Shown: positions 2,061 through 61,318 of the stretch, in pieces
Numbering within the stretch: the first letter of the stretch is position 1
Layout: the number at the start of each line of letters is the position of its first letter
Assembly (NCBI GenBank): GCA_034440575.1
Contig: JAOTOL010001599.1
Coordinates: 124,001 to 188,000 of the forward strand
DNA from: Imbricaverruca yamaguchii
Taxonomy: Eukaryota > Arthropoda > Thecostraca > Neoverrucidae
Direction of reading: 5' to 3'
Length of the DNA stretch: 64,000 bases
The notes under the pieces: generated by a model
What the model was told of the DNA's origin: nothing
Database searches by the model: none
What the model saw: the letters and a program-made list of their open reading frames with translations, nothing else
Translations under genes and position numbers: made by a program

Positions 2061-3110
2061 GCCAAAATAGAGCCGGCCGGGGCCCCTGAAAATCACACTG
2101 AGCCTGGGGGTGCCAACAAATTCACACCCGGACCACGAAAATCGCGCCAGGGGCACGACGGGTCGTTCCGTGCCACAACAGTCTCATTGAGACACAAATG
2201 AAGCGTGGAAAACGAAAAACAATCCAGACATGGATAATCACTTTGGGGCCCAACAATGACGTCAAAATCCTCCAAAACGTAGTGGACGCCCAAAAAGTGT
2301 CGAGGCCGCCTAAACTCACGCTATGGATCCAAGCAACTGACGTCGGGACACAACATTACAGTGGACTCAAAAAGTCGCATCACAGCCCTTGAAATCACAC
2401 TGGGGGTCCAAAAGGTCCTGCCGGGGCCCCAAAAGTTGCAGCTGCCCTAACAAATAAATTTTCAGCCAGAATGTCACTGCAGCGTCAAAAATCAGGTCAA
2501 TCCCCCGAAAACCCGTTGGGCGCTGTAAAAAACGTGTCAGGGCATCGAGAAAAATCGCACCGGGACCAAATAATATCGCATGAAGTCACCTAAAAAGATA
2601 TAACTCGATGTCAACAAGTTCACACCGAGACTCGACCGAATTGACCCCGGCACCGGCAAATTAAGAACAGGTCCGGAAAAATACCCGGAGGGCTTTTACA
2701 CCCTGAAAGGTGCCATCGGCTGAAAAAATAACTCCTTCAGTGACAGCAGTGGCATATCAAAAGGACAAATTTCCCCTCCTAAGATAAATTAGCTCTCAAG
2801 AATTGTGCAAAGTCGCGCTGGGGCCACCAAAATTAGCGTCGGTGCACCGGAATTCACGCAGGGGGCTCCACGTAGATACAGCAGGACCAGAAAACTCGCT
2901 CCGAAGTCAGAAAATCTGCAACAGGAACCGCCAAGATTGCGTTGGGATCACAGCTAAGTACAACGCGCCCCACAAACTCGACCCGGTTCCCCAAATACAC
3001 GTCGGGGCTTCCAGAAATTGGCGTCTAGGGCCCCACATAAGCATAGTGTGACCCCCAGAAATCGCATCGGTATCGCTCCCTCCAAAAATAAAGCTGGAAT
3101 CTTGCAAAGT
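2060..3110. repeat. Old satellite-like array, copy 1 (AAAATCGCGCC type)
   Basis: Units of roughly 25-32 bp repeat a theme of CCCC, then AAAATC/AAATTC, then GCGCCGGGG, strongly diverged. Short frames across it have no conserved protein. The same theme fills 7780-8930, and a matched non-tandem block follows each array (3300-3545 and 9455-9690), so both belong to one composite repeat. Confidence 0.6.
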
Positions 3111-3299
3111 AAGGATGGATTCCCAAAAAATAATTGCTGCTTTATGCTATAAAGTAATTGCCGCTAATTGCTAAAGGCATCTGATGGGCATCTGATGGCC
3201 AGGGCCATAAAGCAAGAGTTGCATCCATAACTAAACGTACTGGGAGCTCTATAAATAAACACACCGGAAGCTCTCAAGGCACACAGGCATGGGTGTGAC

Positions 3300-3545
3300 C
3301 ATTGGGGGGGGGGGAGGGGCTGGGGACATATCCCATCACTTTCTGAAGTGACGATGTGTCCCCCCCCCCCCCCACAAAAAAAATTATGTGTCCCCAAAGC
3401 CTCAGCTACCTAAGCATCATCGCCGCAAAATTATACATAATAATTTACAGAGTAAAAATACATACGCAAGAGAATCACCAAAAATAATAAAAGCCGATGT
3501 AGCCAATAAACCAGCTGCACAGACTATCTGTCCTCATAAAATCTC
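3300..3545. repeat. Dispersed repeat block, copy 1
   Basis: It shares a colinear series with 9455-9690: GGGGCTGGGG, GTGTCCC, ACTTTCTGAA, TCAGCTACCT, ATCGCCGCAAAAT, GCAAGA-AATCACC, and a final AAAATCTC. It contains a 14-base C run at 3361-3374 that the other copy lacks. Confidence 0.8.
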
Positions 3546-3579
3546 AATTTAATCCCCCCAATCCCAATTCCATTTCAAA

Positions 3580-4450
3580 CCCAGACATGTCAAGGTCAAA
3601 GGTTTCATTGAGTTCTTCGATGTCATCGCGTTTCGTCGCTATGGCTTCAATTAGCAGAAAATGGATGTCATTCGTGACAACGAATGAACAATCGTTACAA
3701 TGGATGTCAAATGACAGCCCATGGTGAACCTTCGAGTAACATTTTTAAACCGGGATATGTCAAGGTCAAACTTCATGGTTAAAGACTAATTTGATTTCTT
3801 TTCGAAGTCATCGCGATTCGTCGCTATGGGTTCAATTTGCACCAAGTGTGTGCCATTCGACATAACTCATGCTGTACTATAATGCTACCAAATATAACCA
3901 ATTTCTAAGGTCAAAGGTCAAACTGATCATTTTTGGTCGCCTCGCATTTTTTATTCGCCTTAACATGCCCACATCCGGAATCAAACAATAGCCCGATGTG
4001 CACCTCGAGTAGTATTTCGAACCGGGACATGTCAATGTCAAACCACAAGACCGAAGGCTAGCTTAAATTGTTCAAAGTCCTCCCGCCGCGTCGCTATGTC
4101 TTCAATTTTCATAAAGTGGAGTGACTCGATGTGCCATTTGGTACTCTAGGAAATTTTTCAGAAATCACATTAAATTTGGACGTCAAAGGTCGAACTCATT
4201 TCTTTTTTTCGCCTCGCGTTTCATCGTTTTGTCTCAAACTTCCAATGCTTGGCATCAAGAGAAAGCCCGTGGGCAACCCTTGAGTAGCATTTTAACCCGG
4301 GACATGTCAGATCAAACCTCAAAGTCAATGGTTCGTTTAATTTCAGAGTCCTCGTGTTTCGTAGTTATTGCTTCAATTTACATTGTGTGGGTGTCATTCG
4401 ACGTGGCTTGCCGTACAGTATCAAAATGTTGAGATGTCGAAATAATTTCA
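3580..4450. repeat. About 270-bp tandem repeat, 3-4 diverged copies
   Basis: The anchor CCGGGACATGTCAA-GTCAAA recurs near 3582, 3750, 4020 and 4293. Each is followed by TCGCTATG-CTTCAATTT and, further on, TCAAAGGTC-AACT and TCGCCTCGC. The first copy is about 100 bp shorter. No coding frame is conserved among copies. Confidence 0.75.
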
Positions 4451-23685: not shown

Positions 23686-23936
<251 letters not shown>

Positions 23937-23937
<1 letters not shown>

Positions 23938-25982
23938 TCATTTGTTTGTCCTCGGCGTCAGTGCACGGGACACAGGCCCAACGTCTGCATTCCGAGCATT
24001 GCATCCACTGCTCGCACGACAGGCGAAACAACATGCCACAAATGATACACGTCGTTCCATCTCGGTTGGTGCTGGTCTATGTGCCAGCTTCCTTTCCGTT
24101 TGCTTGCCTCTTCGGCCTAGAGGTAGGTTTCTGCATTTTCGCCACCTTCTTCGAAAGATGCCTGTCCTCCAGCTTCCTCTTGTAGGGCGAGGAGTTCAGC
24201 ACCTGGGCATGCTCCGCCCTCTGCATACGCTTCCAGGTTGTAGCAGTCCTGAATGGCGACAACAACTCCGCACTGAATCCGGGATCCGCCACAGGCAGTC
24301 GTCCAGCTAATTCATCAGACGACGTGGCACCTGACATTGGGCAGCTAGGCTTATTTTTCAATTGGACTGTGGAGTGACCCGAAATAAAAAGTAGTGACCG
24401 GAAAAATACTGGTCGGAAAATCTTTCAAATGAAAGGATTAAAAACTTATGAATGAAGCTGAATAAAGGCGCAATAAATTATATTTTAGCGATGGCCTGAT
24501 AGCAACTTTATAAGGTTCTCATGTCAAAGTTCAAACTCATCGAGATCTGAAAGAAGGGGAAAACCATTTAGTCTCGTTGCCGATGTAGGTAAACTTAAGT
24601 TTAACGATAATATGTCAAAAGTTACCTACCTAGCGTAACACTAGCGAATGCCGGAGCAGTCGCGTCGTTCACCACGGAGCTGCTGACAGCGTCGCCACTC
24701 GTGACGTCAGCGACATCCAGGTGGTCCTCCTCTTGTGTGACAGCGACTGGTGGTGCGTCAGCGTCCTCGGGTGCGTGCTCCTCCGTCAGGATCTCCGCAG
24801 CAGCGAAGTCTTCGTCGGAGAACACCTGGCTGTCGTACGGTCACAAGCCGGTGTGCCTGAAGCCGTTGATCGCTTTCTCGATGTTGGCGATCCTGTTGTA
24901 CGCCCAGCTGAAGAGACCAGCCACCTCAAAGTGGGCGATGCGGCGGCCTGGGTGCTCCGACACCCAGCTGTCTGCTGAGGCGTTATAAGCTGACTTCAGC
25001 GCTTTGAAGCCGCCGACGTCCATCGGCTGAAGGCGGTGGGTGCAGAGGGGCGGCAGGGTTACCATGACAATGCCATGATCTCTGGCGTAATTAATTGCAA
25101 CCAGTTATTTGCGACTGTTGTGACCATCCAGGATCAGGATACTTTTTCCTCTGGACTGGGCTTCATCACTTGAGTGAAATGATCAAGCCACACCACGAAG
25201 GCGTCGGCGTCCATCCACCAAGAGGGCGTCGCGACACCCGCTGACCCTGGTGGTGCATTGCTCATGAGCGACTCGTTCATCCGCTTTCTGGGAAAGATGA
25301 ACACTGGTGGCGCATACTGGCCGCTGACGCTGACGGCACACATGACGGTGGCGTTGCTGCCTCTCTCAGCCTTTGTGACTGCCCACTCTGCGTTGCCCCC
25401 TCTCGGCCAGCACCGATTGGCCTGCGGACTCTGGTGATGCCCGTTTCGTCGGCATTCCAGATCCTCACTGCCGTCACCCCACACTTCTGCAGCTCTTCCT
25501 TATATATCCCGAAGAAGCGTTTGACGTTCTCCCCGTTGAAGCCGATGCAGCGGTTGATTGGGCTGAGGTTTGCGGAACGACATGTCAGGAGGCCGCTTCA
25601 TGAAGCCCTGCAGCCAGTCAAATTCGGCCATTTCTTTCTCACAGCTGAATCTGTGGGCAATGCCCTCCCGCTTCGCTAGTGCATACACCAGTCGGCGAAC
25701 GTCTTTGGTAGAGAAACCGAAGAACGTTTTCTCCATCTGCTTCAGGTACGAAACCAGACGTTGTTTCAGTTTTTCGATATCTGGCTTGAAGCGACCCAGC
25801 GACACTTGCCCCGGCGAACGCACACGACTATCTCGATGCCGACGGAGGGCCCTTCTGGGCACGCCGTACTTCCTCGCCGTGGGCGCAAGCAGTTTGCCCC
25901 TTTTGAGATCGGCGAGAGCTTTTCGGAGTGCCTTTTCGCCGTAGCTGGCACATGCAGACTTCCGTTGACAAGTTCTTCCCAT
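23937..25982 (-). pseudogene. Decayed pogo/Tigger-type transposase gene
   Basis: Starts at ATG 25982 with a Lys/Arg-rich helix-turn-helix region (A-L-R-K-A-L-A-D-L...Y-G-V-P-R-R-A-L). A CENP-B-like region (F-D-W-L-Q-G-F-M-K-R) and a DDE_1 catalytic core follow. The three catalytic Asp are readable: N-A-D-E-T-G near 25440, I-L-D-G-H near 25120 and Q-P-M-D-V-G near 25020. The C-terminal part has a phase-consistent intron (donor 24629, acceptor 24367) and ends in a C-x2-C ... C-x2-C-x2-W-A-C-x2-C tail near 24040-23970. It is broken by frameshifts near 25565, 25400 and 25143, and by stops at 25105-25107, 24841-24843 and about 24077. It moved DNA by cut-and-paste when intact; now inactive. Inverted repeats were not found. 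Confidence 0.85.
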
Positions 25983-25984
25983 AT

Positions 25985-27790
25985 TCTGTGAAAGGTGAAT
26001 ATGGGAAGAATTATAATGAATGTACAGCAAAATTGGACGCTAGCGGATCAAGGAGGAAAATGAGACATTTCGCGCCATCCTAAAATAGATGAATTTTGAA
26101 TGAAATGATCAAATGCTGCAGTTTTTGCGAAAAGAATATTTTGAATGTGAGTTGCTGTCGCGCAACCTTCTCCCAAACCCTTGCGATAGTAGGCACTCCA
26201 ATGCGATGATGTTAAAGGTACGAGAAGTTAAAAGTGTCATTTTATCGCTTCCTAGACTCGCACGTGAAAATGGAAAGAAAAGATGTCGGATGAAGGCTGT
26301 AATGTCGGAAATGAACGAGTCACACACAGTTATTAAATTATATTCTTAACATACACTCATCAATAGCTACATATTCGGCTAGGTACATTTATGGACGAGA
26401 AATGAAGAAAATGACCTCGCCCCTTGTGCTGTTTCTGATCCCATTCAAATGCACTTCTTCAACAACGTTATGTGCATTGCTGATTAACGATTCCTAATGC
26501 CCCAATAACACTGCACCGTTAACAATCTGGAATCATCAACGGTCGCTGTCAGCAGCACCAATGCCAACCTTCATCGCAATCTATCCTTCCGTTTCTATCC
26601 AATCCCACTCATCTTGCTCGAGGGGTCAGAGGCCAACCTGACATAGGTATCTACCCCCAAGCCGTGCGAGGGTTAATCACCTATTGTTCTCAAAAGTTTG
26701 AAATCTGATAACATTAGACAAGCTTTGCCTATTACTTAGTACATACCCATGTCGGTACATAGGTACCTTCCTAGAATCTTGTGATTATTGCCTTATGCTT
26801 TGGGTATTATTGCACTTTATCACGCGCCCTGGAGGGGTGGGGTGGGAGTTAGGGGCGAAATCCGCCCACCCCACCGGTTTTTCGAACATAACTCCAGATT
26901 TTACCAGCCGATATACGCCATTGTTTGCGTACCTGCTTAAAAATGACAGGTGCGTTGTTTAAAGCACGAAAAACGAAAATCGACCGATTTTTTTTTGGTG
27001 TCCAGTTAGGGGCCGTTGAAGTAAAAAAAATTATCAGCGCCAGAAAACAAAAATCGGCTCTGAAGTGCTTCCCGTATATTGGTAAAAGAGAAGTGTTCTT
27101 GGCAACACTAGCGACTTATTTGATGTATATAGTTATGCTATGTAGTTTGAAAGTCATGTTAGGTAACCGAGGTCAAGTCAGGTCAAGTTCATGACAGGTT
27201 AAAGGAACCAAACTGGAATGTTGTCATGAATGTAAATGACAGTCATGCGATTGATGTCACTTTGCATGCTACTCCTACACATCCTGAAAACTACTGTTTG
27301 CCATTGTGTACCGATTGCATACATCATTCATGTACTTTTTTGCGAAGCCGATTGCGCGGAGCCGCCAAACGGAGCAGTGGGGCTGGCGGCCTCGTTCCGG
27401 TAACTGGAGCAGGTAATGGCCTAATAAAGTGCTGCTATGTAGGTCAACTGAGGTCAAATGCCGGGTTTATCATCTGTATTGCACCATCAATAATGTCCAA
27501 AACATCAATGAAGCCGATTTCTGACCATTTAAACACAATCACAGCGATTCAGAACGATGACAAGCCAAGCCACGCAAAACCAGAACACTTGAAATGTTGA
27601 TCTCATTTGACCTTGAATATATTGATCTAAGGTCATGAAAGTTGTACAGAATAGAGATCACTGTTGTACCCATCCACCCTGGGAATTTCGTTGCTCCAGC
27701 TTCAATAGTAGCTGATATCTTAGAGGGACGGAGGCGATATCCGCCACCGTCCAGCGTGCGTAATCTTCAGAGACCCTCCAGAGCGCGTGT
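25985..27790. other. Gene-free stretch
   Basis: No recognisable coding sequence. A G-rich segment (26828-26885) resembles pieces at 28917-28990, suggesting dispersed-repeat debris. Confidence 0.5.
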
Positions 27791-35870: not shown

Positions 35871-36159
35871 AACACACGCGTTTTTTTTGTCATGGTACGC
35901 ATAGCGTGACCGGAAAACAAGAACATTTTAACAAGCTTCCTTGGTTTCATTGTTCACGCTTTGGGCACTTCCCACGTATTGCACATAACTACACATTACT
36001 GCACTGCACTGAACAGTGCACAATCGAACAACGATGGGATAGAACAACGAAATAAATATCAGATGATGAGAACTTGTTTTTTTTACCCAACGAAACTCTT
36101 GTAGCTTCCTTAACGAGAGCTGAACATTTTATGATCACCATAGTGTCGAAGCTTATTTC

Positions 36160-36333
36160 TATATAACGGTGTAATTTTACTTCAGAACATTTGATAGTTA
36201 CTAACAACACGTGCTGAATGACAACAGATGACAACGACGCAGCCTGGTGATCTGCGACCATGCTAACATCACAACAAGAAGTCCAATTATGCTTCATTTC
36301 CACCTGCCGAGCATCATCTATATGGACGTACAG
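36160..36333 (+). repeat. Direct repeat, copy B (interrupted by the transposon)
   Basis: Second copy of the repeat at 35690-35870, about 480 bp downstream. Its last eight bases are the left target duplication, and its remainder resumes at 39400. Confidence 0.75.
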
Positions 36334-36570
36334 TAGACAGGTTCATATTTCAACTTTTTTCGAAGATAGCTTCATCTCGCAAATTTTCCCATTGTTTGGT
36401 TCATTTTAAGTCCATCGGTGTTGGTTTCAGCAGGATCGATCAATATCTTAGGGTGCCGCATCGACCCCAAAATTTGCGCGTTCGGACTTCCAACTTGACA
36501 TTTTTGCCCGCAAGTCTAGCGGTTTTCTACTCTGGTATCTCATCGTCAGGAAACATTCTGCAGACTTACC
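36334..36570. repeat. Left terminal inverted repeat
   Basis: Starts TAGACAGGTTCA. Landmarks shared with the right arm: CTTCATCTCGCAAATTTT, GCAGGATCGATCAATATCTT, GGGTGCCGCATCGACCC and ACATTCTGCAGACTTACC. It contains seven extra bases near 36355 absent from the right arm. Confidence 0.85.
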
Positions 36571-37198
36571 TACCAGCGCACCCAGTAGCTTTCTACCTCG
36601 ACATGTCTCCAGTGCATCGTTATTTGCAGCCAAAGAGCGTGTTTTCCAGCGAAGAACTGGATGTGGATCAGTGACGGTATAGTTGCCTGTCACACTGATT
36701 TTGCTTCCACCATATTTTTGCAAAGTCGCATACGCCCTGCGAAACGATGCTCCCAAGTCAGTAAGTACATAACTCACACTCAAATCAGGTGTTCACTGTA
36801 CCCTGGCAGTGAATTCAGTAATTTCCGGCATAATAACACTCGATAAGAGCCTTAACAAATTTCACCCAAGATAATAAAATAGTCGCAGCCACTCGAACCA
36901 TCTCGATACAATTGCAATATCAGCCGTCGCGTTTCCGCGCTTTTATTTATTTATGGTGACTGGTAGGATCGCCAATGAATGAACACTGGATATGACTGTG
37001 ACTGAACACTGAACACCTTGGGTATCAATGAGCGCTCGATAATAGGCGAAGCAATTGCAGGCGAATCTAAACGAACATGAAAGTAGATAACAAATATCTT
37101 ATCACATTGTGTTAACAAATCACATCGAGATAACAAATCACATCGAGCGGTGGGTCAAGCACCAGTGTTGCTGTCATGCAGAGACGAGACCTATTGCT

Positions 37199-38607
37199 TT
37201 ACACGTTCATGGCAGCTTTGCTAAGCTTCGGTAATCTCGCTCTGTGGCTCCCAACAGCTTGCAAGAGCCACTGGAACTGGGACTCGTCGCCGACCATTCC
37301 AGCGAACTCCTTCGGCATGCTGATATCCCGCTCGGCTAGATCATTTGTGACTGACCTCACGGACAAAGTTCTCGAATTTCACGTAGTCGTCGTCCTCGCA
37401 CCCCTGCTGTGGCGGCCGCTTCAGCCAGGCGTGCGTGGACGGACCGATCAACTCAAAAAGGAGCCATGAGGTCTCGTCAACGAGATCCGACAGTCGCGTG
37501 CTCTCATCCAGGCATACTACGGGCACGTCCTCCTCAAACCACCGACCACGGAGACGCGGCGTCGCCAGCAGTCTCGTGCATATCTCCGCCTTCTCAACAC
37601 TGGTCACAAGACCACTACGGAGACTGAACATCACGAGTGGTGGCCTGAGGTACCACATGTGCTTCCGCATGACGCCGAGGGCTGCGTCCGCCACCTCACC
37701 GTCCACAGACCTGTAGCGCACCAGATCCTGGTACAGGCGGAGGTCATTGGCGGGAGCGACAGCCGCCACAGGCGCGCGGAACCAGGCATTCACATACAAC
37801 AGGAGGAACTGGGCCATCCTCTCCAGTTTCGCCACCATCACTTCGTCGTAGCCCAGCTGGTCTGAGAATATGTACATCTTGAAGAAAAGCATCTGAAACA
37901 GCCAAAAACTCCACAGTGATATAGCATTTCAGAGGAAAATCAAACATCGTACCTCGCCATGATACGCGTCGCACTTAACGCCATGTGAACGACCGTACAC
38001 AATTTAATACAATTTGCAGTCGTAGTTGATCGCTAGAGTTGCGGCCGATAACTGCATTTTGTTTGCTGGTAGTATCGATACGATTCCATCCAACTCCCCA
38101 GCTCTCACCTTCGCCATCCAGCGTGCCTGGTGGTAGACTCGAGGGCGACTGAACCTCTCCCCTCTTGGAGGCTGGGCGCCCAAAGCGATCAGAGATAGTT
38201 CCGCCAACTTCCTGTAGTCTCCTCTGTCGAAGCCCGTGTTGGCGTTCAACAGCGACGTCAGGTATTCCACCACGGCGGTTCTGAGCTCAAGCAGCCACGG
38301 GTCTTCCACCGACAGCGCGGCGTGGTTGGTGACGTCCAGTTGCGACCACCTGTAAAACAATTAACGGGGTCTGGAATGCACATATAGAAGGCCCATTGGT
38401 CTCTGCCTGAGGTAATAAGGATGGCAAGATCCGGTTGTTAAGTTGATCATGGCAGCGTGCAAACTATTGGAACCAGCTGCTTTTTAAGGAGCCAACGAAA
38501 TGAACTAGATAAACGATATGTTCATACCTGGCCTTGACGTCCTCGAATTTCTTGTCCGTTGGCTCTGTGGATGGTCCGAAGAGCACCGTGGCGACAGCCT
38601 TCACCAG
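37199..38607 (-). pseudogene. Spliced gene of an unnamed, transposon-borne family (C-terminal half)
   Basis: Three exons read in phase: 38607-38528 (preceded by a stop, so the N-terminal half is missing), 38349-38109 and 37892-37199. Donors and acceptors are AG|GTATGA / TACAG|G and AAG|GTGAGA / TTTCAG|ATG. The product has A-R-W-M-A-K at the exon 2/3 junction, then a mostly alpha-helical stretch with a hydrophobic segment (F-L-L-L-Y-V-N-A-W-F). L-R-G-R-W-F-E-E-D, V-C-L-D-E, L-V-D-E-T-S-W-L-L-F and finally D-L-A-E-R follow. One extra A at 37344-37346 shifts the frame just before that last motif; the frame then runs to TAA at 37199-37201. I recall similar uncharacterised, repetitive proteins in other invertebrates, possibly with an RNase H-like fold upstream, but cannot name them. 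Probable transposase or accessory protein of the surrounding element. Confidence 0.6.
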
Positions 38608-39164
38608 TCAAAAATCGAGTAGGTTAGTTATTAATGGGAAACGAGCAACAGTCCCTGTTGTGTGAAGTTCCAGCCAGCAACAGCCGTTCCTTTCCTTGGC
38701 ATTGGCATTGACAGAGCACTTTTGAGGCTTTTATGTTTCAAAAGTGTTTCATAACTGGATTTTCAGTGCACGTGCATCACCATGAAAACGTCGCAGGCTG
38801 ACAAAAGCAAGGCAGGAAGAGTTGACGAACCTGGGATAATATTTTGAAATACTGGCCCAGGTTCTTTAACATATGGTATATCTTACAAAGCATCTTGTGA
38901 TAATTTCCTTCGTGGGTCAGGAAAATATTTTTGAGGGATTATTTTTGGAGTCAATTTTGGAGTCATCATTTTCAGGATGACGCGGCATCATGGCGATCTC
39001 ATCTGTTCATTCCTACCCATTCAGCACTCTTCATCACCTCACACCTTACAAAAATGGTCAAAAAGTACCTAAGTATGGCCCACTCTGAAGACTTCTTTGG
39101 CCATACTTAGGACTTCTTCATACCTCATAATTTGCACCACATGGTGACAGTGACGTCGCAAGTT

Positions 39165-39391
39165 GGTAAGTCTGCAGAATGTTGCCTGATGATGAGATAC
39201 CAGAGTGGAAAACCGCTGGATTTGCGACCAAAAGAGATCGATTTGGAAGTCCGAACATGCAAACTTTAGGGTCGATGCGGCACCCCAAGATATTGATCGA
39301 TCCTGCTAAAACCAACACCAATGGACCTCAAATGAACCAAATAATGGAAAAATTTGCGAGATGAAGTTATCTTGAAATGTGAACCTGTCTA
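39165..39391. repeat. Right terminal inverted repeat
   Basis: Reverse complement of the left arm, ending TGAACCTGTCTA at 39391 and followed at once by the target duplication ACGTACAG (39392-39399). Confidence 0.85.
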
Positions 39392-39399
39392 ACGTACAG

Positions 39400-40740
39400 T
39401 CGAACACCTATTGCAAGCAGCTCTTTGCTGTCTGTGTCAGGAAACGTCATTTTCACAAACTTCATGTGACTTCAATATTCACGTTTTTGAGATGCTGCGC
39501 ATGTGGAGATTCCGCATGGGACACTGCTACACAATTGTCCATATGTTAGGAAAATGAAAGCAGAGCAAACGGTGTCGATTTGGCTTTGATGACCATATAG
39601 TTACAAACGGCGTCGATTTCGAAGTTCGCCGAAACCGAATGTTGCGGGTGAACATGAAATCTGTGGTCATTCATGAAATCTGAGGAATTGTTAAAACATT
39701 ATCGGAAATAAAAAAAAGTGTTTTTAGCCTTATACTTCTGCGCGATGGGTGAAATAGAACGTCTTCGCGCCGTTTTCTGTGACTTCTGACCACTGCAACG
39801 CATAATAGGGCATCAAATCTGACAATGAAAACGCGGCAAACGGCTTGGATTTCGGGAAATGTTTTTTTTGTTGAGATTGTGAATATCAATTCACAGATTA
39901 TTTTGAGATGGCATTTGAGATAATACGCCCTGGTTCGTCGCTTTGGTCGAGGATAATTTGTATCTGTAAAGGTCGTTTTTAACCAGGAAATTTGGAAATT
40001 CCATGTGAATTCAGAAATCTGTAGAACTTTCAGTCTGGCATATTTCAGGGACTTCTCAACAACTGGAAATAACGGTGCTTCTTGGAAATAACGGTGTAAC
40101 GAAATCATCAGCTCCCTGACAATTTCATTAAATTTGAGGCATGCCAGCTTGTCAGTACCATCACTGGCTTCAAGTCCGGCAGCACCGAAAGCTGACGGCG
40201 AATTTTCTGATGATGGCGAATGATTCGTGTGGGGGACGGTTACATGCGGGCTGCCTTCGGGAGCCCAAGCTCTATCAGCAGCGGCTCTGTGCCAGGTTAT
40301 CTCCCGATCGCCGACAGTGGAACAGAGGGGCGTTGACCGCTCAGGTCACTCTCACGATTCTTCCCATGTCGAGCCAGGGCCAGGTTTGATCCGAGAAGCA
40401 GCCTCCCAGCTCAACATTGCCGATGGTGTCGTCCAGTCACGCTTCTGTGAGCGCTAAAATGCCGCATTGTCTGGGTTCTTACAACTCCTGTGACAAGATT
40501 CCTTGTTCGCACTTGCTGCTGCTGGTGCTGTGTGGAGGCGCCATCAGACGTTCGGCGGCTGTCCATCCAGACGTGTCTGTCGGCCCTGGACTGATCTCAA
40601 CGTCGCCTGAGTAGTAGACAGGGTGTCCGTTGACGGTGCGGCAGCATTTACGCGTCAAACACCTGAATGCAGACGCGCCGTGTCTATTTCTGGATCTTGT
40701 GCTGATACAATCAACGGCATCACTACAGCGCACGCCAGCT
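39400..40740. other. No supported gene
   Basis: 39400-39425 continues the direct repeat interrupted by the transposon. 40140-40740 is GC-richer with open frames on both strands lacking motifs. Confidence 0.5.
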
Positions 40741-46173: not shown

Positions 46174-47985
46174 TCAGCCCTCCCTGTAATACTGAAAAGC
46201 AAGCCCTATATTCTTATAATGATTGTCTATGCTGTTTTTAAAGATGTTCAATATGCTGCTGCTGACGATGTTTTCTGGCAGCTGGTTCCAGTGTTCCACT
46301 ACCCTGTTGGTGAAGAAAGTTTGCCTTAACCTTGTTCTGCTGTGGTTAACTTTAATTTTGAATTTATGACCTCTAATTGCATCATTTCTGTTAAATTCAA
46401 ACATTTCCCCAAGGTATCCCCTCTCCAGACCATTGACAAATTTAAAGACCTCAATGAGTGTTCCTCTCAGCCTTCTATATCTAAGTGAAAACATATTCAA
46501 TTTCTTCAATCTTTCCTCATATGCCCGGTTGCTTATGCCATTAACCATTTTTGTAGCCCTCTTTTGTACTCTCTCCAAAAGCCAACAATCTTTTTCATAG
46601 CTAGGAGACCAAGCTTGGATGCAGTATTCCAAATGTGGCCTGACGTATGCACAGTAAAGCTTCCTGATCACTTCCTCACTTCTGTATGATACATTCCTAT
46701 TTATTGCCCCGAGCATTCTCAGTGCCTTCTTCCTGGCTTCCCTGGTCTGTTCTGATGCTCCCAGTTTTGTGTTTAGAATAACACCTAAATCCTTATCCTG
46801 TTGAGTCACTGATAGCACTTGGCCACCCATCAAGTATGGAGCCTTCATATGCTGCTTACCTACGTGCATGATTTTGCACTTATCAAAGTTAAATTTCATT
46901 TGCCATTCTTCGGACCACTTCACAAGTTCGTCTAAGTCTTTTTGCAGCGAGATATGCTCATCCTGACCTGTTATTGCTCTAAAGACCTTCAAATCATCCG
47001 CAAATTTCAAAACTTTACTGCTTAGGCCACTTTCAATGTTATTTACAAATATAATGAACAGTAATGGCCCTAGTACTGACCCCTGGGGGACTCCACTAAG
47101 AACATTTTGCCATGATGACTTTGTACCATTTAGCATCACTCTTTGCTGTCTATCTGAAAGCCACAACTCTATCCATTTTAAGATGCTACCTGCAATACCA
47201 TGGGACTGAAGCTGTATCATTAACCGTTTATGGGGTACCTTGTCAAAGGCCTTACTAAAGTCAAGATATGCTACATCAACCTGATTACCCTGATCAAATT
47301 GTTCTGTGGCGAAGTTCAAAAAGTCCAAGAGGTTTGTGAGACACGATCGTCCTTTTCTAAACCCATGTTGAGTATTTTGAATCAATCTGCTACCTTCCAG
47401 ATAACTAACTATTCTATCCTTGATAGTTGATTCGAGTACCTTGCATACTAGGGATGTGAGACTTATTGGCCTATAGTTTTCAACTTTCCCTCTTTCTCCT
47501 TTCTTGAAAATAGGAACTACATTTGCCCTTTTCCAATCGGTTGGAATTTCATTATGTGAAACTGATCTACAAAATATTATACTAAGTGGAAATGCCAGTT
47601 CCTTTTCAGTTTCCCGCAACACCCTAGCATAAATTTCATCAGGTCCTGCTGCCTTATTTTGCTTTATTTTCCTGATATGATTGTAAACAACATCACTATC
47701 AATGAAATCAACATCATTTGTCAGATCCCATGTCACTGAACTATGGTGTATGGTCGGCAGATTGGTCATATCTTCCAATGTAAACACTGATTTGAACTGC
47801 TTGCTCAGCTCCTCAACCATCTCACTATCCTCACCCAATGTAGTCCCGTTTACTTCCAGTGGATCAATTGTGCTAGAAACTTTACTCAGCTTGTAGAAAC
47901 TAAAGAACTTTTTACTGTCCCCATTACAGTTTCTAGCTAAATCCAGTTCTTTTGCTCGCTTTGCTGCTCTGGTTTTTTGCTTCAC
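46174..47985 (-). CDS. CR1-like LINE ORF2, reverse transcriptase part
   Basis: About 600 residues in the frame that continues ORF2 after the frameshift at 48000-48003. The RT fingers/palm are readable: V-V-P-I-F-K-K-G, N-Y-R-P-I-S-L-T-S, Q-H-G-F-R-K-G-R-S-C, A-Y-L-D-F-S-K-A-F-D, G-V-P-Q-G-S-V-L-G-P, and the catalytic F-A-D-D. The C-terminus has the CR1-type H-F/Y-N-Q-L-P region (V-E-H-W-N-Q-L-P). It copies the element's RNA at the nicked target. Apart from the upstream shift this part is uninterrupted to its stop at 46174. Confidence 0.9.
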   Translation of the reverse strand: MKQKTRAAKRAKELDLARNCNGDSKKFFSFYKLSKVSSTIDPLEVNGTTLGEDSEMVEELSKQFKSVFTLEDMTNLPTIHHSSVTWDLTNDVDFIDSDVVYNHIRKIKQNKAAGPDEIYARVLRETEKELAFPLSIIFCRSVSHNEIPTDWKRANVVPIFKKGERGKVENYRPISLTSLVCKVLESTIKDRIVSYLEGSRLIQNTQHGFRKGRSCLTNLLDFLNFATEQFDQGNQVDVAYLDFSKAFDKVPHKRLMIQLQSHGIAGSILKWIELWLSDRQQRVMLNGTKSSWQNVLSGVPQGSVLGPLLFIIFVNNIESGLSSKVLKFADDLKVFRAITGQDEHISLQKDLDELVKWSEEWQMKFNFDKCKIMHVGKQHMKAPYLMGGQVLSVTQQDKDLGVILNTKLGASEQTREARKKALRMLGAINRNVSYRSEEVIRKLYCAYVRPHLEYCIQAWSPSYEKDCWLLERVQKRATKMVNGISNRAYEERLKKLNMFSLRYRRLRGTLIEVFKFVNGLERGYLGEMFEFNRNDAIRGHKFKIKVNHSRTRLRQTFFTNRVVEHWNQLPENIVSSSILNIFKNSIDNHYKNIGLAFQYYREG

Positions 47986-47990
47986 AGTGT

Positions 47991-49178
47991 TTATGTAGCT
48001 TTTCGATACGCCTTTAGATTAACGACATTTGAGGCTTCTTTAAAAACTCTAAATGCAGTTTTCTTAGCCTTAATTGCTTTTATCACGTCTGGTGTAAGGC
48101 ATGCTGGCTTTCCTACCCCTCTTTTGCGTCTTTGCTTTTGGGGGACATGTCTAATCTGAGTTTCCTTCAAGTAAGATTTGAACTTTTCCCACATTTCACA
48201 GGCATTTAAATTGGATAATTCTTCTTCCCATCTGATGGCACTTAAAGCCTCTCTCATGCCGTTAAAGTCTGCTCTGTTGAAATTTGGAACCTTTACCAAA
48301 TTATCCTTGATAATTTCCCCTACATGTGCCTTGAATCTAACTATGTTATGGTCACTTTTTCCCAGAGTTTCGCCTACAGTCAAGTCTTGAACCAAGTCAC
48401 TTAAATCCGAGAATACAAGGTCCAAGAATGAACCATGCCTGGTAGGTTCCGATACAAACTGGTGTAAGAACAGGTCCTCTTCAAGGCATTTCCTAAACAT
48501 TTTGCATGATGGGGTGCCAACACCAGCATATTCATAACCTTTTAGATTAAAGTCACCGAGAATAAGGCACTTCCTCTTAAAGTTTCTACTGATTTCCTCA
48601 CAAATCACCTTGTCAAGCTCCAGTTGCTGAGAATGTGGCAGGGTTCCTGATCGGTAGAAAGCTCCTATCCTAAGAGTATTGCTGTTGCCTTTTCCCACAG
48701 TGACATCAAGCCAAATGGACTCCACAGACACATTTTTATCCCCACCTGCTACTTTTTGAGAACTGAATAAGCTATTCATATAGAGCAACACACCACCCCC
48801 TTTCATTGCTGGACCCCTATTGCACGAAAACATATTGTATCCCTGGATCTCATAGTCCTGTAAGTTATCTCCAAAATACCCTTCACTGACCCATGCCTCC
48901 GTAATGCAAACAAAATCCGGTTCCTCCTCAGCAACATAACACTTGAACTCATCAAATTTGGAACGGATACTCTGAGCATTAAACATCATACACTTAACGA
49001 ATGCTCCATAACCACCTTTGGCTTTTTCATATTGAGGAGTTCTTTTATCACTAGATGAACTATAACTCTGTCCCCTTGAGTTGCTGCTGTCCCTATTTGC
49101 AGACTTTGAGGTTCTATTGCCTTGGCTGACACTATTGGAATATTCCTGAGTTGGCAATGCAATTTCATCCCTCCCCAC
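47991..49178 (-). CDS. CR1-like LINE ORF2, endonuclease part (frameshifted)
   Basis: APE-type endonuclease that nicks target DNA. Visible catalytic motifs in order: F-N-A-Q-S-I-R (Asn), C-I-T-E-A-W (Glu), G-G-G-V-L-L-Y, G-D-F-N-L-K (Asp/Asn) and G-K-S-D-H-N (Asp/His). The frame is open upstream of 49178 to just inside ORF1 but has no ATG; its first in-frame codon in the call is GTG, so initiation may be by re-initiation after ORF1. It stops early at TAA 47993-47991 because of a missing base in the A run at 48000-48003. Confidence 0.85.
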   Translation of the reverse strand: MGRDEIALPTQEYSNSVSQGNRTSKSANRDSSNSRGQSYSSSSDKRTPQYEKAKGGYGAFVKCMMFNAQSIRSKFDEFKCYVAEEEPDFVCITEAWVSEGYFGDNLQDYEIQGYNMFSCNRGPAMKGGGVLLYMNSLFSSQKVAGGDKNVSVESIWLDVTVGKGNSNTLRIGAFYRSGTLPHSQQLELDKVICEEISRNFKRKCLILGDFNLKGYEYAGVGTPSCKMFRKCLEEDLFLHQFVSEPTRHGSFLDLVFSDLSDLVQDLTVGETLGKSDHNIVRFKAHVGEIIKDNLVKVPNFNRADFNGMREALSAIRWEEELSNLNACEMWEKFKSYLKETQIRHVPQKQRRKRGVGKPACLTPDVIKAIKAKKTAFRVFKEASNVVNLKAYRKAT

Positions 49179-49186
49179 CCCATTTC

Positions 49187-50134
49187 CTAGTTTCCCTGAA
49201 GGACATGCTCGTATACTTTGCCTAACACATGGACCCCCTTCTCAGAAAAGTGCAGGCCATCCCTCTGATAGAGGTCCCACGATGCATAAAACCTGCTCCA
49301 CTCGTCTACAAATGTAAAACCTAGCTCATGGCAGAGCTTTCCTACCCTGGCGTTAGCTGCCAGTGCCCTTGAGCTCCACTCAGGGGAGGCTCTAGCCCTA
49401 GGCAAAATTCCTGTTATAATGACTCTATTGGTACCCTTCAGGGTGGCCAGAAGGCCCCTGTACTCCCGCAGAAGCTCCTCACTCCTAGTCTGACCTATGT
49501 TATTTACCCCTACATGCACTATGACTGTGTTAAACTGATGATCACTGGTGACCTGTGCCACCGCAGGTACCAGGTCCTTCACCTTGGCACCAGGCCTGGT
49601 GATGCACCTCCTGTCCCTCCTACCTTTACAAAATACCCGCTCTAAATATCGCACACGAGAGTCTCCTATGACCAGCACTGACTCCTTACTACTGCTATCC
49701 TGGGGGCAGTCATCCAATGCCTGGAACATATTTGTTGTTACTATGCCTGCCCGCTGGGCCGGTTGGCTAGACTTCCTCCCGCTCCTACCACCTGCCACCT
49801 GCCACTCACTAACCTTTTCCTTAGGTTCGCGTCTCCAAATCCTCCACCCCCTGACCTCATGCCACTTCCCCTCCTGTGACCTACCAGAACTACCCCTCCT
49901 CTGTTCACTATTAAAACTCCCCTCCTGAGAGATCCCAGCCACCTCCACAGTAGGGGAAGCCTCAGCTACCTGGTGGCCTGCGACCACCTGGGCATATGAT
50001 GTCCCTGCTACGGAGTGACCCCTTGTTGCTTTATCTTGCCTACCCTGTGCAACAAGGGCAGCCTTGAGATTGGAAACCTCTGCCTTAAGGGTCCTAATTT
50101 CTTCCTCTAGTGCCTGCATCCTTGTCGAAACCAT
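49187..50134 (-). CDS. CR1-like LINE ORF1: coiled coil plus SGNH esterase
   Basis: 315 residues, starting at ATG 50134-50132 and ending TAG 49189-49187. Residues about 5-33 form a heptad-rich coiled coil (M-Q-A-L-E-E-E-I-R-T-L-K). The middle (about 60-145) is low-complexity, Gly/Ser/Arg-rich. Residues about 147-315 form an SGNH/GDSL esterase-like fold: G-D-S-R-V (block I), I-V-H-V-G-V-N-N (blocks II/III) and D-G-L-H-F (block V with catalytic Asp and His). Such ORF1 proteins in CR1 elements bind RNA/lipid and act in the ribonucleoprotein. Intact here. Confidence 0.88.
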   Translation of the reverse strand: MVSTRMQALEEEIRTLKAEVSNLKAALVAQGRQDKATRGHSVAGTSYAQVVAGHQVAEASPTVEVAGISQEGSFNSEQRRGSSGRSQEGKWHEVRGWRIWRREPKEKVSEWQVAGGRSGRKSSQPAQRAGIVTTNMFQALDDCPQDSSSKESVLVIGDSRVRYLERVFCKGRRDRRCITRPGAKVKDLVPAVAQVTSDHQFNTVIVHVGVNNIGQTRSEELLREYRGLLATLKGTNRVIITGILPRARASPEWSSRALAANARVGKLCHELGFTFVDEWSRFYASWDLYQRDGLHFSEKGVHVLGKVYEHVLQGN

Positions 50135-52115: not shown

Positions 52116-52124
52116 TATATGTAT

Positions 52125-52129
<5 letters not shown>

Positions 52130-52191
<62 letters not shown>

Positions 52192-52277
52192 TGTATGTGT
52201 GTGTGTATGTGTGTATGTGTATGTATATGTATATGCATATGTGTATGTATATGTGAATGCATATGCATATGTGGGTG

Positions 52278-52348
<71 letters not shown>

Positions 52349-52365
52349 TTGTGTGTGTGTGTGTA
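52130..52365. repeat. Compound (AT)n / (GT)n microsatellite
   Basis: AT tract at about 52137-52188, GT/ATGT-rich tract to 52270, a second AT tract at 52281-52340, then (GT)n to 52364. Confidence 0.95.
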
Positions 52366-59484: not shown

Positions 59485-60150
59485 CTGAAAATGGGATGAC
59501 AGTTTTAACTGCATTCCAGTACTGAAAATTGTACCTAGTACATAAATCAGAACCAATAAGTGGAATTTATTCCAAATGCTGGGATGCAGTGGGAGCTTGT
59601 TGAACGATTCCTTCTGTACACTCTGAGTGCAATACTACATTCTTTCTCTCTATCCCTCTCTCAACATTTTGTGATGTAGCTGCACTCCCAACATAGAGAG
59701 TGAGAGGGAGATACCAACATTTACCAATTACCAGGAGATAATGGGGACAGATCAAAAGATAGTCGCAACAGAGGTATGACAGTCTGGCTTGGACCATGAG
59801 CAGAGGAATAAGGCGGATGGGTGCACTTTCTTGACTGCTTCACTTGGGGAGGGGAAAACATGGACAGTGAAAGAGGACACACAGGTCAAGATGAGATACA
59901 CAAGGATAGAACCTTCATGATCACACCATGTTTATTTTTGGTTTGCCCTTATGATGCTTGTGATATTGGCATGCACCAATAGCTTGGTTCCAGGTAAAGA
60001 GCACTGAGAGGTTGGACTTGAACCAGCCCCTACCTTTTAACCTGTGCCCACAGCCTTTTAGTTGGAAGATGGGCATGATACCACCAACTTCTCACCTCCA
60101 TACCAACATGTTTGTTTTAACATTACTGGGCATGCACTGGTAATACAGAC

Positions 60151-61083
60151 CTTGATGTAGCTAGCTTTTGTTTCGTTTTGTGCCCTGAAGACCTGAAGCA
60201 TGGCTCCAACCATTCTGGCAGTTTCACAAGTGACCAGGAAGACTGCCAATGGCACACCTCGTCCAAACGAGTCCACTGCCAGGATGGTGAAGACTGGGGT
60301 TCTGATGTCCACCAGCTTGTAGGTGGAGTCCATCAGGAGCAGTTCAGGAAACTTCTTGTATGCTGATTGCATCTCTGCATCATGAAAGAAAAGACCACAG
60401 ACAGTACCCTTGTCCTCGACAACTGCTGCATGAAATCCCTGCTCAGTGAGCACATCAACTGCACTCTGCAAGTCTGACCTCTCATCTCTAGGGGCCCTCA
60501 GAACATTGTTTAGGTCATGCCGTGTTACTGCTTTGCCATGTGACCTGCAAATGCTGCTGAATGTGCTTTTTGTCAGCACCAACAGCATGGTATTGCCATG
60601 CTTTGGCCTTAGCTTCCTCCGTGAGACGACGGTTTTCTGGCTGCAACAGAAAGCTTGCCTTTGATACTGGATGGGAATGGCTCAAGTTAACATGCTTAAC
60701 TACAAGGCACAGGGTCTTATACAGACATACCTGGATGCTTGCAGCACATCCAACTTTCTTAGTTGTGGTTTTCTTAACCCTATTGTCCCCTCCCTTATTT
60801 TGGTAGCTCCGTCCACCCTGGGTACGAGAGAATGTGATAGACCGGTACTTAATATTTCTCAATAGTGTCTCTGTTTCATCACTGCTTGCTACCAATTTTG
60901 ACAGGAAATGGCCAGGACTAGTTTTCATAAACTTGCTCAAAGTTACTGAGCTAGACTTGAAGAATGTCACATTGGTACAGTTTTCTAACCCATGAATCCA
61001 AGCACTAACTTCATCAAATGACCCAAAACAGTCACCTTCACTCAGTGAGTCTATCCTCCTTGGTGCCTTGAATCCTCCGTTTT
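60151..61083 (-). pseudogene. MULE/FAR1-like gene, exon A
   Basis: Acceptor AG at 61085-61084, donor GT at 60150-60149. Residues from E-N-G-G-F-K-A-P to Q-Q-H-L-Q are in one frame, and S-H-G-K-A-V-T-R-H-D-L to A-S-Y-I-K in the next. The change of frame falls in 60560-60572. Both sides read like one continuous ZSWIM3-type protein. Confidence 0.7.
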
Positions 61084-61318
61084 CTGAAACACATTGCAGA
61101 AGTGTCAGCAATTTGGTTCCTTCTTGTTCTATATTTCTATTTTAAGAATTTAGTAAATGGTTTAAATGCAGATAACATTCTGAAATCACCACATGGGCAC
61201 ATTAGCATCAGGGTAAGGCACATAATGCAATGATATGATGCCATGTCATTTGTGTTTGGGAAGGAATGGTACATTAGACATTACAAACCTAGAATAGCTC
61301 ACACAATTACATAAATGA

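Follow-up and report, generated by a model that had tools for sequence, protein, structure and literature searches.

An internally deleted DNA transposon copy from Imbricaverruca yamaguchii and the probable hAT-like transposase of its full-length form

A stretch of 64,000 nucleotides from the genome of Imbricaverruca yamaguchii (GenBank assembly GCA_034440575.1, contig JAOTOL010001599.1, positions 124,001 to 188,000 of the forward strand; referred to here in its entirety as the window) contains an element with long terminal inverted repeats (TIRs), a target-site duplication (TSD) of 8 bp and the remains of a spliced gene on the minus strand. This element is very probably a non-autonomous copy, shortened by an internal deletion, of a cut-and-paste DNA transposon whose full-length form encodes a transposase of hAT-like layout. 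Judging from conserved residues and a predicted fold, the gene most likely encodes a transposase, a DDE enzyme with the hAT fold whose deep lineage escapes hAT sequence models.

The element and its copies in the genome

The initial annotation of the window had described a transposon with exact boundaries, a perfect 8-bp duplication and inverted repeats of about 230 bp. We find the element at 36334–39391 with ACGTACAG on both sides, and its two ends can be aligned over ~240 bp at ~85% identity. When the 767-Mb genome (1430 contigs) was searched with the TIR, 40 matches were scored of 262 candidates, at about 96% identity, which puts the repeat far beyond chance. These matches represent 36 places, since four elements were matched at both ends. 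The TIRs are ~240 bp long and have TAGAC ends.

The window element moved as a unit. A query of 414 bases, in which both window flanks were joined with a single copy of the duplication, gave 45 matches (297 candidates, 40 scored), of which 38 cross the junction as one alignment at 75–82% identity; two others are the flanks of the window itself, and five are short pieces. The element was thus inserted into a copy of another repeat, unoccupied copies of which exist. At one such empty site (L055, 30 bases read), a single site-like CAATACAG continues directly into the right flank. The host repeat, at 36120–36333 and 39400–39599 of the window, is dispersed, with at least 38 paralogues at 75–82% identity.

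We compared 23 loci, comprising 20 regions picked by their TIR, two picked by the gene (L051 and L052) and the window itself. Both ends are present in 21 of these, L048 and L049 being excluded as incomplete. The duplication recurs at the other copies: an 8-bp TSD is found at 17 of the 21 complete copies, 16 of them perfect and one with 7/8 bases matching. From 29 insertions for which one or both ends were read (one of which, L020, has an imperfect TIR end), the target consensus is NTGYRCAN, with T2 in 24, G3 in 27, C6 in 24 and A7 in 24. T2 and A7 occur together in 20 of the 29 sites, compared to a window background of 7% (P = 6.5e-17), and the family displays the hAT-type TSD pattern nTnnnnAn.

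The last exon, or at least its 3' part (≥150 bases), is present in all 21 complete TIR-bounded copies, while L051 and L052, which were chosen without regard to the TIR, are both TIR-bounded. The link between gene and transposon proposed in the initial annotation therefore holds in both directions, and the gene family is multi-copy rather than being found at conserved single-copy loci without TIRs.

The three minus-strand exons proposed for the window copy join in phase. The exon joints are GT-AG in all seven aligned copies of the 3.06-kb form to which the window copy belongs, and in L037 a single frame runs through all three segments to the stop (...FEDVKAR/WSQLDV...ARWMAK/MLFFKM...SHRA-stop). 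The previously noted motifs RWMAK, GRWFE, LVDETSWLLF and DLAER are all present in the window copy, the last exon of which has a frameshift around 37341–37378, near the exon end. The coordinates of the element and its parts are listed in Table 1.

Table 1. Features of the transposon copy in the window (positions in the 64,000-nucleotide stretch)
Feature	Position	Strand	Remarks
Left TSD copy, ACGTACAG	36326..36333	.	8 bp; paralogues without the element align across the junction
Whole transposon copy	36334..39391	-	3058 bp; gene on minus strand; belongs to the non-autonomous 3.06-kb form
TIR A, starts TAGACAGGTTCA	36334..36580	+	3' of gene
Last exon, MLFFKMYIF...TNDLAER...SKAAMNV	37199..37892	-	presumed third catalytic residue, E, in NDLAER
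Middle exon, WSQLDV...ARWMAK	38109..38349	-	placed within the helical insertion by alignment
Remaining 3' end of the exon in which full-length copies encode the second D and CxxH, VKAVATVLFGPS...DVKAR	38528..38604	-	
Internal deletion junction	38605..38606	-	removal of the N-terminal domain and of both D residues; from comparison with L051; 7/7 copies of the same form align across it
TIR B	39162..39391	-	5' of gene
Right TSD copy, ACGTACAG	39392..39399	.	perfect 8-bp match to left copy

A full-length copy, L051 (contig C1201), is 5120 bp long and has the TSD TTGTACAC at both sides. Compared to L051, the 3.06-kb form lacks bases 2272–4374 (2.1 kb), which confirms the earlier suggestion that the window copy had lost its N-terminal half; its seven aligned copies retain the C-terminal part of the gene and differ by a mean distance of 3.3% over 21 pairs. 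Since it lacks both aspartates and carries the frameshift, the window copy cannot make the enzyme, and it would be movable only by a fuller copy. A second deleted form, of 3.95 kb, keeps the N-terminal coding sequence and the final part of the last exon, with about 3110–5387 of L051 gone and some 370 other bases in their place. This form (L031–L034, L041 and L046) has inverted arms of 685 bp, 98% identical in L031, as does L052, a full-length copy without a TSD. The long arms arose because an inverted copy of the A end was added outside the B end, a variant that was then amplified. The 3.06-kb and 3.95-kb forms both seem to derive from fuller elements by internal deletion and to have multiplied as non-autonomous elements. 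Of the longer copies with intact genes anticipated in the initial annotation, the full-length L051 and L052 were found, but the gene is broken or partial in every TIR-bounded copy read.

The gene product and its predicted fold

Exon by exon, the product of L051 and L052 consists of an N-terminal helical region, followed by VAHWDG, VLAMSQ..GTGKAQAE..VVGLCFDTTATNTG..LACxHHVMEL, ARWM and, near the end, NDLAERGI. The coding length is about 760 residues, in a reading that passes over frameshifts and, in the third segment, a stop codon. A D-D-E triad with CxxH after the second D is present in L051, and these residues are near-invariant in 169 relatives (first D in 169/169, E in 151/153). In the relative P0110 the triad corresponds to D312, D377 and E711. 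AlphaFold gave no usable model from the window exon alone (predicted local distance difference test score of 41). The predicted fold of the relative P0110, however, is closest to Hermes, with a Foldseek E-value of 1.7e-5, compared to 0.03 for the P element transposase (6P5A). As in hAT transposases, the predicted structure has an RNase H-like core with a large helical insertion between β5 and the E-bearing helix, and it can be superimposed on Hermes.

The initial annotation had left open whether the protein was the transposase or a cargo. With the D-D-E and CxxH residues near-invariant and the fold of a relative closest to Hermes, it is best read as the transposase. It is very unlikely that the gene is a cargo and that the elements are moved by an unseen transposase from elsewhere: the broken or partial state of the gene in the TIR-bounded copies would fit such an arrangement, but the protein family has a transposase-like predicted fold and near-invariant residues, and no other long open frame was seen on the gene strand of L051 (the opposite strand was not listed).

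Sequence models gave no comparable signal. Across 67 members of the family, the only Pfam match at E 0.01 was an unrelated one in a single member. No match to the MULE transposase domain was found in these 67, nor to the THAP domain, although many of them lack the N terminus (P0110, P0104 and P0119 are full length). Pfam scans of the exons, the read-through proteins and the relatives yielded weak and inconsistent matches only, the best at 0.0045 (P0117). P0207 is the sole listed protein to which the protein database assigns a Pfam label (PF27041.1), which was not reproduced in our Pfam scan. Sequence searches of the PDB found no transposase, and the family profile did not match Hermes there. 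Of the comparisons by hidden Markov model and structure suggested earlier, the structural one places the predicted fold nearest to Hermes; the other, in which Hermes was the one hAT protein compared by hhalign, gives no sequence or profile link to hAT.

Relationship to known superfamilies

The hAT superfamily is indicated by the structure and by the length and pattern of the TSD. The predicted fold resembles Hermes (PDB 2BW3, 4D1Q, 6DWW, 8EDG and 8SJD) over about 360 residues. Also shared with hAT are a D-D-E triad of near-equal spacing with a long helical insertion, a CxxH that follows the second D, and an ER pair at the catalytic E (NDxAER here, SAASER in Hermes); the 8-bp TSD, with T at position 2 and A at position 7, is likewise of the hAT kind. 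Unlike hAT, the family has no detectable sequence or Pfam similarity to that superfamily and matches neither the BED finger nor PF05699, and its N-terminal domain is helical. The most likely reading is that the element works like a hAT transposon. We stop short of classing it outright within hAT because the PF05699 match and a profile link are lacking, despite the presence of the fold, the DDE/CxxH residues and the TSD features.

In the proposed mechanism, the full-length element, of about 5.1 kb, encodes a multi-exon transposase with a helical N-terminal domain and an RNase H-like core. The core carries the D-D-E triad, with CxxH behind the second D and the E preceded by a large insertion that is entirely helical. 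The transposase would bind the ~240-bp ends and excise the element. Hermes forms a hairpin on the flanking DNA during excision, and by analogy the same probably occurs here. The element would then be joined to NTGYRCAN targets with an 8-bp stagger, the repair of which would lead to the 8-bp duplication, and deleted copies, including that in the window, would have been mobilised in trans.

Several points weigh against this assignment. hAT TIRs are usually short, far shorter than the ~240 bp seen here, and the TAGAC ends differ at the fifth base from the hAT end consensus, T/CA(A/G)NG. The TIRs of Hermes itself are given as 17 bp in PMC10368747. Four of the 21 complete copies have no clear duplication (L034, with 6/8 bases kept, L039, L040 and L052). 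The alignments to unoccupied sites hold small insertions and deletions, so that the single duplication copy is seen directly in L055 and presumed in the rest. The fold was modelled on P0110 rather than on the decayed window copy, and its similarity to Hermes is modest, with a TM-score of 0.30–0.35 by query and 0.42–0.51 by target, a root-mean-square deviation of 12–17 over about 550 columns and 11–12% identity. None of the 67 members matched the hAT Pfam models at E 0.01, and none matched the PF05699 dimerisation region at the same cutoff, although the Hermes control did so at 4e-25; PF05699 is a sequence model, however, and the family may still have the same fold in this region. There was no Pfam match to a BED finger, and hhalign of the 67-sequence profile against Hermes, a single hAT protein, gave a probability of 0.2%; a smaller profile of 4 sequences likewise gave no link to Hermes. 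In L054, a diverged intronless member in the same genome, the second D is replaced by H, and the TIR and TSD comparison covered the spliced element family rather than such diverged intronless lineages. The mode of action is read from sequence and predicted fold, not from observed transposition.

It is possible, though we hold it tentatively, that these elements form a superfamily of their own, with the hAT-type fold but sister to hAT rather than a branch within it. The lack of hAT Pfam matches, the failure of the profile to find Hermes in the PDB and the hhalign result all speak for such a sister group, as do the long TIRs, the N-terminal domain without a BED match and the introns. On the other hand, the fold and the length and pattern of the TSD are all consistent with hAT. 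That superfamily is itself very diverse, and since the direct profile comparison was made with one hAT protein, a deep hAT branch would look alike. PMC4455052 states that Repbase splits superfamilies when their transposases do not converge in PSI-BLAST, which counts in favor of separation. At its fullest, this alternative may describe an unrecognised animal DNA-transposon superfamily that has very long TIRs, an NTGYRCAN target and an N-terminal DNA-binding domain peculiar to it, retains long unbroken genes in this genome and occurs across arthropods and molluscs, where its proteins bear no functional names; we consider this conceivable but somewhat doubtful.

Membership of the MuDR/MULE or P superfamily appears very unlikely. 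MULEs often have long TIRs, and both these transposons and bacterial IS256 elements (ISCth4, which we take to belong to that family) resemble the present family in their RNase H core with a helical insertion, their C/DxxH and a TSD of around 8 bp. The P superfamily, including the Drosophila P element, likewise has an 8-bp TSD and an RNase H core with a large insertion, but its Foldseek E-value is poorer than that of Hermes and no THAP match was found. ISCth4 and the P element transposase do appear in the fold lists, lower down. The MULE and P assignments were ranked lower on fold scores, among rows that included no solved MULE structure, and families outside the VIA-align list may still fit. 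The KDZ transposons (Kyakuja, Dileera and Zisupton) have cysteine-rich CxC domains and their own transposase. CxxH or DxxH is described in PMC3706591 as common to hAT, Kolobok, P and MuDR, and fits the MuDR/MULE or P assignment as well. The same paper presents Dada, which also has D/CxxH, as distantly related to these four, with 6–7 bp TSDs, no terminal inverted repeats and small RNA genes as targets; the element here differs from Dada in its 8-bp TSD and long TIRs.

Distribution and significance of the family

Scored match counts in the genome are lower bounds, and unscored candidates are not necessarily members. The last exon gave 150 scored matches of 828 candidates, 49 of them only 26–49% identical. 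One last-exon fragment (G000:C1371:309596-310003) lies inside a stretch with an open frame of 2726 residues. Exon C gave 150 scored of 1537 candidates, all at E 1.3e-19 or better, and at all 18 strong exon C loci (≥84% identity, ≥94/128 residues) a last-exon match was seen by eye within about 6 kb on the same contig. With L054 as the query, 97 matches were obtained from 95 scored of 2441 candidates; 11 of these 97 match rows have open frames of ≥700 residues with the match free of stops, examples in the genome being 814, 790 and 784 residues long. Loci with open frames of 700–814 residues include C1392:1714021-1715208, C1215:10005-11198 and C1313:713646-714833. Given such long stop-free frames, recently active elements may exist.

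Protein searches gave 250 matches with L054 (120 listed) and 446 with P0110 at E 1e-3 or better (120 listed), whereas the C-terminal query from the spliced subfamily (an L051 open frame through an intron) gave four, at 31–38%. Among the matches listed, the sources include the wasps Cotesia glomerata, C. congregata, C. typhae and Venturia canescens, as well as Artemia franciscana, Patella caerulea, Schizaphis graminum, Uroleucon formosanum, Aphis glycines and Daktulosphaira vitifoliae. The listed relatives are named uncharacterized or hypothetical, or carry a mere gene label. Searches of IMG/VR and of GTDB prokaryote genomes, phages and plasmids yielded no relatives, so that the family looks eukaryotic within what was searched. 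Titles and the starts of abstracts in the open-access literature contained no description of it; Repbase and Dfam, where an entry may exist, were outside that search.

The window holds other features, recognized by eye. Two long open frames at 46174–49241 (minus strand) resemble the endonuclease and reverse transcriptase of a long interspersed nuclear element (LINE). Two open frames at 60058–61141 (minus) resemble a MULE or ZSWIM-type RNase H-like protein, and one at 25500–26039 (minus) a pogo-type helix-turn-helix protein. The long stretches at 23686–23933 and 52116–52363, which match each other in inverted orientation, look like simple repeats.

Many "uncharacterized" invertebrate proteins are probably transposases of this kind. 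If this is true, many invertebrate genes that are multi-copy and labelled "uncharacterized" would be reassigned as transposases, changing gene counts and repeat annotation in those genomes, and the family would offer a test of how far hAT biochemistry reaches beyond sequence similarity.
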